Positions 15,383 through 42,013 of a stretch of 64,000 nucleotides of DNA are shown one piece after another. The position numbers and the translations under genes are program-made. The stretch's first letter is position 1; every line of letters starts with the position of its first letter. Below the pieces are notes generated by a model, which saw only the letters and a list, made by a program, of their open reading frames with translations, had not been told where the DNA came from and did not search any database. Location: positions 1 through 64,000 of the forward strand of contig CAMBMK010000003.1 of the NCBI GenBank assembly GCA_945868745.1, given 5' to 3'. This DNA is from an uncultured Bacteroidales bacterium (GTDB lineage Bacteria > Bacteroidota > Bacteroidia > Bacteroidales > UBA932).

Positions 15383-16423
15383 ATGGCAAAGACTGTACTT
15401 GTTTCCGGTGGCGCCGGCTTCATCGGCAGCCACGTGACAGTAGAGCTGATTTCCGCAGGCTATGACGTGGTCGTTGCGGATGACATGTCCAACTGTGACC
15501 TGACCTGCTTCGAGGGTGTAAAAAAGATTACGGGCAGGGACAACCTCCCGTTCGTGAAGATGGATTTCTGCGACCTCGAGGCCGTCCATAATCTTTTCGC
15601 AGAATACCATATCGACGCTGTGATCCATTTCGCCGCATTCAAGGCAGTGGGCGAATCAGTTGCAGAGCCTCTGAAATACTACAACAACAACCTTACCTCA
15701 TTCATGAACCTGCTCACCGTGGCCCACGCCCAGAAGAGCGGATGCAATGTGCTGTTCTCGTCATCGGCCACGGTCTATGGAGAGCCTGACGTGCTTCCTG
15801 TCACCGAGGAGTCTCCAAGGCAGCCGGCCACCTCGCCATACGGCAATACCAAACAGATCTGTGAAGACATACTGCGCGACTGCGTGAAAGCCTACAGTGA
15901 GGGTGAAGGTGCACTCAAGGGCATAGCACTGAGGTATTTCAATCCTATCGGCGCCCATCCTTCGGGACTCATCGGAGAGCTTCCGCGCGGAGTGCCCAAC
16001 AACCTCGTTCCTTTCATCACCCAGACGGCCATCGGCAAGAGGGAGTGCCTGAGCATTTTCGGCAATGACTACCCTACGCCTGACGGGACCTGCCAGAGGG
16101 ACTATATCGACATCGTGGATCTCGCAAAGGCCCATGTATGCGCTGTCGGCAGGATGATTGACGGAAAGATGGAGAATGACTATGAGGTGTTCAACATCGG
16201 CACAGGCGTGCCTGTGTCGGTTCTGGAGCTTGTAAATGCATTCGAGAAGGTCAACAATCTGAAGCTCAACTACAAGTTTGCCCCGAGACGCAGCGGCGAC
16301 GTGACCGCAATCTGGGCAGATCCAACACTTGCCAACGAAAAGCTCGGCTGGAAGGCAGAAAGGTCTGTGGAAGAGACACTTGCCGCCGCCTGGAAATGGG
16401 AGCAGCGGATAGCCGGAAAATAA
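15383..16423 (+). CDS. galE: UDP-glucose 4-epimerase
   Basis: MAKTVLVSGGAGFIGSHVTVELISAGYDVVVADDMSN; SSSATVYGEP; SPYGNTK. Confidence 0.94.
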   Translation: MAKTVLVSGGAGFIGSHVTVELISAGYDVVVADDMSNCDLTCFEGVKKITGRDNLPFVKMDFCDLEAVHNLFAEYHIDAVIHFAAFKAVGESVAEPLKYYNNNLTSFMNLLTVAHAQKSGCNVLFSSSATVYGEPDVLPVTEESPRQPATSPYGNTKQICEDILRDCVKAYSEGEGALKGIALRYFNPIGAHPSGLIGELPRGVPNNLVPFITQTAIGKRECLSIFGNDYPTPDGTCQRDYIDIVDLAKAHVCAVGRMIDGKMENDYEVFNIGTGVPVSVLELVNAFEKVNNLKLNYKFAPRRSGDVTAIWADPTLANEKLGWKAERSVEETLAAAWKWEQRIAGK

Positions 16424-16460
16424 AATAAAGGAAGCAGGCAATGCCTGCTTCCTTTATTTT
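16424..16460 (+). terminator. Intrinsic terminator after galE
   Basis: AATAAAGGAAGCAGGCA-ATGCCTGCTTCCTTTATTTT near-perfect inverted repeat. Confidence 0.75.
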
Positions 16461-16948
16461 CAACCCCAGTCTGCTGACGCAGACAGCCCCTTTAGGGGCA
16501 CACCGCTTCCGCTTTGCTCCAGCGGGCGTCTCCGCTATTCGATTTCCTTCGGAAATCTCATTGACGCTCCAACGCGGCGCGTGGTCGCGCCCAGTCTAAT
16601 GCGGATACCTTCTACAAATAATATTGCTTACGTTGGCTTTGATTGCGCCAAGCCACTCAACCCCAACCGCTTACAGCGCAACGGCCACTGCGAGGAGAAC
16701 CCTTTGGTCGAGCTCCCCGCAGCTGTGGCCGATGCAGCCGGAGTGCGTATATTCCGGCTGCGGTGCCAGTACGCATCTTCTCGTCAATACCATCTCCCGT
16801 GAAATTCACCTGGCACGGGCAACCCCTCTACAGGTACCTGTGGGACACTATCCCGTTCCCGGTGGAGACAAATTGCCCTCACCGGGAACGCCAACCCCCA
16901 TTCTACACTACTGTAGGGCATATCCCCGTTCCAGGTGAATTTCATGAG
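16457..16948. repeat. Hairpin-rich interspersed repeat, copy 1 (module order T-Y-B-T'-A)
   Basis: Block A (16657-16948) near-identical to 27783-28075; block B (16574-16622) matches 28082-28131; inverted stem 16798-16819 / 16925-16946. Confidence 0.85.
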
Positions 16949-27780: not shown

Positions 27781-28131
27781 TTTTCAACCCCCAGTCGCTT
27801 ACAGCGCAACGGCCACAGCGAGGAGAGCCCTTGGGCCGAGCTCCCCGCAGCTGTGGCCGTAGCAGCCGCAGGTCATATTCCGGCTGCGGTGCCAGTACGC
27901 ATCTTATCGTCAATACCACCTCCCGTGAAATTCACCTGGCACGGGCAGACCCTCCACAGGTACCTGTGGGGCACTATCCCGTTCCCGGTGGAGACAAATT
28001 GCCCTCACCGGGAACGCCAACCCCCATTCTGCACCATTGTAGGGCATATCCCCGTGCCAGGTGAATTTCACGAGGATAAGTGCGGCGCGTGACCGCGCCC
28101 AGTCTGATGTGGGATACCTTCTACCAATAAT
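27781..28131. repeat. Hairpin-rich interspersed repeat, copy 2 (module order T-A-B)
   Basis: Near-identical to 16657-16948 (block A) and 16574-16622 (block B); perfect 22-bp inverted stem 27924-27945 / 28051-28072. Confidence 0.85.
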
Positions 28132-41648: not shown

Positions 41649-41708
41649 GGAAATATATACCTGCGGATTTTGTTTTGTCTCTTGTTTTTTACATTGCTTC
41701 TTTCCATC

Positions 41709-41880
41709 TTTGCCGTGCATTACGGTTCCGCAAGGATCAATAGGGAATCCGGTGTGAGTCCGGAACAATACCCGTTGCTGTAATTCCCCGCCGCCGTCAG
41801 GGGGTTTCACATCTGTGCCACTGTCCATTACAGGATGGGAAGGCGTGAGACCCGGGAAGAGTCAGAAGACCTGCCGGAAT
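41709..41880 (+). ncRNA. Cobalamin (AdoCbl) riboswitch
   Basis: GGTTCC...GGGAATCCGGTGTGAGTCCGGAAC...CCCGTTGCTGTAATTCCCC...GCCACTG...GGGAAGGCG...GAGTCAGAAGACCTGCC, the canonical Cbl core/B12 box. Confidence 0.95.
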
Positions 41881-42013
41881 GCTTTGGATTATACGATGCA
41901 AACGCGGGATTACGGTTGCTGCCTGATTTTTACGGCTTTCCGCCGTAGGTGTCACGTTGTCCGTACCCGCAGGTACACGGGATTATGTACTTCAAATCAA
42001 ATATTTACGGATA

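Follow-up and report, generated by a model that had tools for sequence, protein, structure and literature searches.

The stretch of DNA analysed here (the window) comprises the first 64,000 nucleotides of contig CAMBMK010000003.1 from an uncultured Bacteroidales bacterium (assembly GCA_945868745.1) and carries two copies of a palindromic element whose natural unit is 149 bp long. Each copy sits between two convergent genes, copy 1 being flanked by ispF (PF02542) and a gene for a low-molecular-weight phosphatase (PF01451), and copy 2 by genes for an epimerase/dehydratase and a peptidase S13. As the initial annotation had stated, the genes adjoining the two copies include no transposase. Perfect inverted repeats of at least 18 bp with arms no more than 400 nt apart occur in the window only in this element and in a short terminator-like hairpin at 16422-16460. 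The features of the two loci are as follows.

16574-16622, forward strand: repeat D, a further copy upstream of copy 2
16661-16750, forward strand: repeat A, fused to copy 2
16798-16946, no strand assigned: copy 2 of the REPIN-like element, 149 bp
27789-27878, forward strand: repeat A, an unrelated hairpin repeat fused to copy 1
27924-28072, no strand assigned: copy 1 of the REPIN-like element, a four-arm palindrome of 149 bp
27924-27945, forward strand: arm 1, made up of the end dyad CGTGAAATTCACC and the species-specific stem, with arm 4 as its partner (from covariation)
27946-27979, forward strand: loop A, with the conserved motif GGGCACTAT (genus consensus approximately RGGCAYNTT)
27980-28016, forward strand: inner hairpin, consisting of arm 2, an AAATT-type centre and arm 3 (from fold and covariation)
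28017-28050, forward strand: loop B, with motif GGGCATATC, orientation and motif being as in loop A
28051-28072, forward strand: arm 4, terminating in the dyad GGTGAATTTCACG (from covariation)
28080-28131, forward strand: repeat D, the third intergenic repeat of the mosaic

The 22-bp perfect arms previously described at 27924-27945 and 28051-28072, with 105 nt between them, are present, as are the internal and upstream sequences listed with them, CCACAGGTACCTGTGG (27954-27969), GTTCCCGGT/ACCGGGAAC, CTGCACCATTGTAG and GGCCACAGC/GCTGTGGCC. The reported second copy with the same 105-nt interior corresponds to 16798-16946, in which the arms match at 20 of 22 positions. The stems lying 5' of the palindrome are likewise there, but they are not part of the same element: they belong to the separate repeat A (27789-27878), which occurs without the core in relatives. 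The element had also been called duplicated. It is indeed repeated, but not just twice: the assembly contains eight complete copies, each of exactly 149 bp, and several more that are truncated by contig ends. Across ten copies, including two on a separately found contig of the same species, column identity averages 94%.

The predicted fold is very stable on both strands, lying 8-10 standard deviations below shuffled sequence, and takes the shape of a long unbranched rod in which an outer stem is followed by two facing loops and an inner stem. In the consensus fold, the region of the GGTACC palindrome is paired across the rod and forms no hairpin of its own; the multi-branch RNA junction envisaged earlier is therefore unsupported, the prediction being an unbranched rod instead. 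An alignment of 33 copies from 24 genomes, built without structure, has 90.8% of its cells paired and yields a covariation score of 0.567, compared with 0.177 when shuffled and at most 0.10 when slid, with the caveat that the aligned members were picked by a model that rewards pairing. The initial annotation had considered that differences among copies might break the pairing; instead, 29 of the 31 stem pairs changed on both sides. The hairpins of the element are real and far from chance. A fold of two hairpins (arm 1 with arm 2, and arm 3 with arm 4) is possible and reaches 80% pairing, compared with 91% for the preferred rod, because arms 1 and 3 are alike, as are arms 2 and 4. The term structured RNA thus holds only for a fold conserved by covariation, and a single-stranded-DNA transposase substrate would show the same.

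The element belongs to a family spread over the genus. R1, a covariance model built from the source-genome copies, recovers diverged relatives from 28 of the 300 genomes of the genus, and R2, a second model built from the 33 aligned copies, recovers relatives from 108 of them. Applied to a sample of the order (n = 394), R2 finds only the source genome, the genus member G667 and, weakly, G569. Family members are 146-150 bp long and share the same succession of parts, namely an end dyad (usually CGTGAAATTCACC), arm 1, a loop A that measures about 35 nt and contains an RGGCAYNTT-like motif, arm 2, centre and arm 3, a loop B carrying the same motif in the same direction, arm 4 and an end dyad. A 76-nt single-loop form also exists. 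Genome G022 (L117-L122) has long arrays in which 76-nt and 149-nt units alternate, separated by related spacers of about 50 nt; at least 54 full-length places are listed for this genome, and at least two of the arrays adjoin tRNA genes.

Between copies within a genome, the stems show 0.04-0.14 differences per site, compared with 0.13-0.50 for the loops. The sister species G239 and G264 have values of 0.04-0.09 in stems and 0.42-0.50 in loops, and the contrast is weaker in the source genome (outer stem 0.04, inner stem 0.11, loops 0.14). The stem sequence is common to the copies of one genome and differs between species, and this likeness within a genome exceeds the needs of pairing. Constancy within genomes and variation between species suggest that the stem is recognised in trans; homogenising gene conversion is another possible source of the likeness. 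In many species no other sequence is as well conserved as the end dyad, which is swapped in several (for example, for GCAAAACGGC in G015), with the stem still paired. No column at the feet of the hairpins or stems corresponds to a conserved GT[AG]G guide tetranucleotide.

Copies are mostly intergenic and lie beside unrelated genes; according to crude gene calls, placement is convergent in 16 cases, co-directional in 10 and divergent in one. No target-site duplication was found in 76 copies. The two sister species have occupied sites in common, but at one site G264 has a copy and the orthologous position in G239 has none. Insertion and deletion fit this last site alike, because about 30 nt round the junction have diverged too, and the occupied/empty pair, when examined for a target-site duplication, gave no clean junction. 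In these two species, a copy also lies in-frame in rsmE (L097 345-1607 in G239 and L104 345-1349 in G264), where it splits the PF04452 domain. The frame is open in both, and the copy is followed by translated tandem repeats (GGN.PAGDQPA.DAL).

The enrichment between convergent genes, together with the strong covariation and the very stable fold on both strands, would suit a selected structured RNA (a 3'-UTR stabiliser, a bidirectional terminator or a processed small RNA) whose spread simply follows that of the genome. We consider this explanation very improbable, however, since the copies adjoin unrelated genes, about two thirds of the genus is without the element by model R2, the stem sequence is common within a genome beyond what pairing needs, one copy is in-frame in rsmE, and there is no U-tract. 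The Rfam match that the initial annotation had envisaged as a counterargument to its proposal is absent for the element in the window and in the loci of 15 relatives, which also argues against a known RNA family. Across these sequences, Rfam matches only cobalamin and FMN riboswitches and tRNAs; a cobalamin riboswitch at 41706-41892 is its sole match in the window.

Comparison across genomes of the open frames adjoining the elements reveals one protein family common to six genomes. The best Pfam match is Y1_Tnp for all six proteins, under the cut-off in five of them, and the gene of G001 scores 13 bits in Pfam. The NCBIfam model for the REP-associated tyrosine transposase matches eight of nine proteins, under its cut-off (29 vs 80 bits). 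An HxH motif and a downstream Tyr are invariant among nine aligned proteins. Judged by this motif, the neighbour gene encodes a candidate divergent HUH/Y1 (RAYT-type) transposase, a RAYT-like enzyme that measures about 320 aa, is extended at the C-terminus and carries the motif CY[VT]x[KR]N[AP].

Eleven such HUH/Y1 genes in ten related genomes have their nearest element copy 10-154 nt away, often with copies on both sides. Full flanks are available for nine genes from eight genomes, in which the element lies 10-154 nt from the open frame and five of the nine are flanked on both sides within 190 nt. In the tenth case, from G264, the distance is 31 nt, and the more distant eleventh gene, from G667, has elements on both sides, one side being an array. 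Six of the transposase genes were found through their adjoining elements, and four hits (G001, G003 and two in G036) were obtained by gene similarity, G001 being in both sets; all four similarity-found genes are flanked by the element. No element lies near three further Y1 genes of G120 or at the other Y1 loci scanned. An HUH/Y1 gene flanked by copies is what defines a REPtron (PMC6006769), and the relatives in which the gene is flanked by element copies therefore show the REPtron layout.

In the source assembly, which is 83% complete, no transposase of this type is present in the 420 kb (25%) inspected, which include the surroundings of the copies and most contig ends. A Pfam search, which misses this subfamily, finds no Y1 genes in that assembly, and Pfam Y1 presence across genomes, with the same subfamily missed, does not correlate with that of the element. 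A search of the PDB with the transposase profile gave no match, nor did a search of a plasmid collection for the transposase or of plasmid and phage collections for the element. Across the genus, most genomes carry Y1-type genes of about 300-360 aa with weak Pfam scores, which apparently form several RAYT-like subgroups.

This recurrent neighbour bears on a second alternative, a classical MITE, that is, a derivative left by deletion within a DDE insertion sequence and mobilised by the DDE transposase via its terminal inverted repeats. Terminal inverted repeats, small size, many copies and intergenic sites are all found here, but the neighbour gene is a Y1 and not a DDE transposase, target-site duplications are absent, and a MITE would not need a conserved inner stem and loop motif. 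No insertion sequence with the element's ends was seen in the assembly either, where repeats are under-assembled, and we regard a MITE as very improbable. An array for a DNA-binding protein (a nucleoid or partition-type site) on the GTGAAATTCAC dyad, to which the conservation of the dyad in many species and the arrays of G022 would lend themselves, is scarcely credible, as several species replace the dyad and keep the stem pairing, and most genus genomes lack the element.

Because copies lie beside REP-type (HUH/Y1) transposase genes in relatives, the element is most likely an oversized REPIN and not a free-standing regulatory RNA. We thus think it probable that a RAYT-type enzyme mobilises the element, which would be a non-autonomous mobile palindrome of REPIN-like type. 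This agrees with one of the two readings offered in the initial annotation, the non-autonomous mobile element, for which the many copies, the homogeneity of the stem within a genome, the presence/absence site and the adjacent RAYT-type transposase in relatives all speak; of the other, the structured RNA, the conserved fold is what survives. That this enzyme acts on the element we infer from its position and from published RAYT biology. In the mechanism that we propose, the transposase would bind the hairpin in single-stranded DNA, for example behind the replication fork, and would cut and rejoin at the foot of the stem, so that the element is moved or copied without target-site duplication. 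The recognition signal would be the species-specific stem with the conserved end dyad, both co-evolving with the transposase, and sites between convergent genes may persist because insertion is least harmful there.

REPINs, RAYTs and REPtrons (PMC3116915, PMC6006769) resemble the present system in several respects. They combine an inverted doublet that forms a long hairpin with many copies, tandem clusters and extragenic placement; their ends are conserved within a genome, the spacer less so, with compensatory changes; and an HUH/Y1 gene is flanked by copies, with no target-site duplication seen. The element described here differs by its length of about 150 bp, its two nested stems and two loops, its end dyad CGTGAAATTCACC and the lack of a GT[AG]G foot, and the protein differs from RAYTs by its length, its C-terminal extension and scores below the curated RAYT cut-offs. 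The nearest described group is subclass 2.6 (Bacteroidetes, with atypical structures; PMC6006769), whose proteins have about 180 aa and the motif YIH[QN]NP, as opposed to CY[VT]x[KR]N[AP] and about 320 aa in the present proteins. REPs tagged with GTAG or CGTC (PMC3733652) are also palindromic repeats between convergent and co-directional genes, and sometimes within genes, but they measure 20-40 bp and have either stems of 8-9 bp (CGTC type) or a GTAG tag. Neither tag nor size recurs here: stems of about 20 bp, loops of about 35 nt and CGTGAAATTCACC-type ends take the place of a CGTC tag, an 8-9-bp stem and a 4-5-nt loop. The system is best filed as a divergent variant of RAYT-REPIN, with the REPtron layout and doublet hairpin present, and the GT[AG]G guide and scores above the curated protein cut-offs absent. 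Whether it forms a new RAYT-REPIN class, in which the enzyme would recognise, instead of the GTAG guide, the species-specific stem and RGGCAYNTT loop motif of a long four-arm hairpin and would co-evolve fast with the stem across one genus, is to our minds an evenly balanced matter.

We know of no RAYT-type neighbour of ERIC or BOX elements, the comparison with whose layout draws partly on general knowledge. These are likewise small palindromic or modular intergenic repeats, in other lineages (PMC10969869). Rickettsia palindromic elements (PMC10969869), set beside the present family by description only, are palindromes of about 150 bp, some of which lie in-frame within protein genes; in the present family such insertion is exceptional and is seen in rsmE of two species. 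The BrickBuilt MITE of Porphyromonas gingivalis (PMC4596501) is a modular, multi-copy, intergenic repeat from a related phylum, but it consists of 23-nt tandem repeats and its ends are like those of known DDE insertion sequences.

RAYT-REPIN systems are a rare case of a transposase long kept by its host, in which the co-evolution of enzyme and repeat is an open question. Dozens of species with their own stems, and a neighbour transposase in at least ten genomes, make both recognition and co-evolution directly testable within one genus. The finding further accounts for a repeat at which assemblies of the genus appear to break, and it shows that this branch is missed by the current RAYT models of Pfam and NCBIfam.

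In the source genome, the element forms mosaics with repeat A. This repeat is also found alone in relatives, at L033 1501-1582 (G026) and L038 1501-1562 (G023), at distances of 19 nt and 164 nt, respectively, from a Y1 gene of another Y1/RAYT-like subgroup. Since repeat A adjoins Y1 genes of other subgroups, a second RAYT may use it as its REP, and the repeat A copies in the mosaics may belong to that RAYT too. A genome-wide DNA pattern scan further returned a contig that is binned as Phocaeicola plebeius and nearly identical to the locus of the source species, the remaining matches being apparently due to chance. This contig, L059 (JALEPZ010000061.1), filed under a Phocaeicola plebeius MAG, is probably mis-binned; it carries two element copies and has the same flanking gene as source contig C59.
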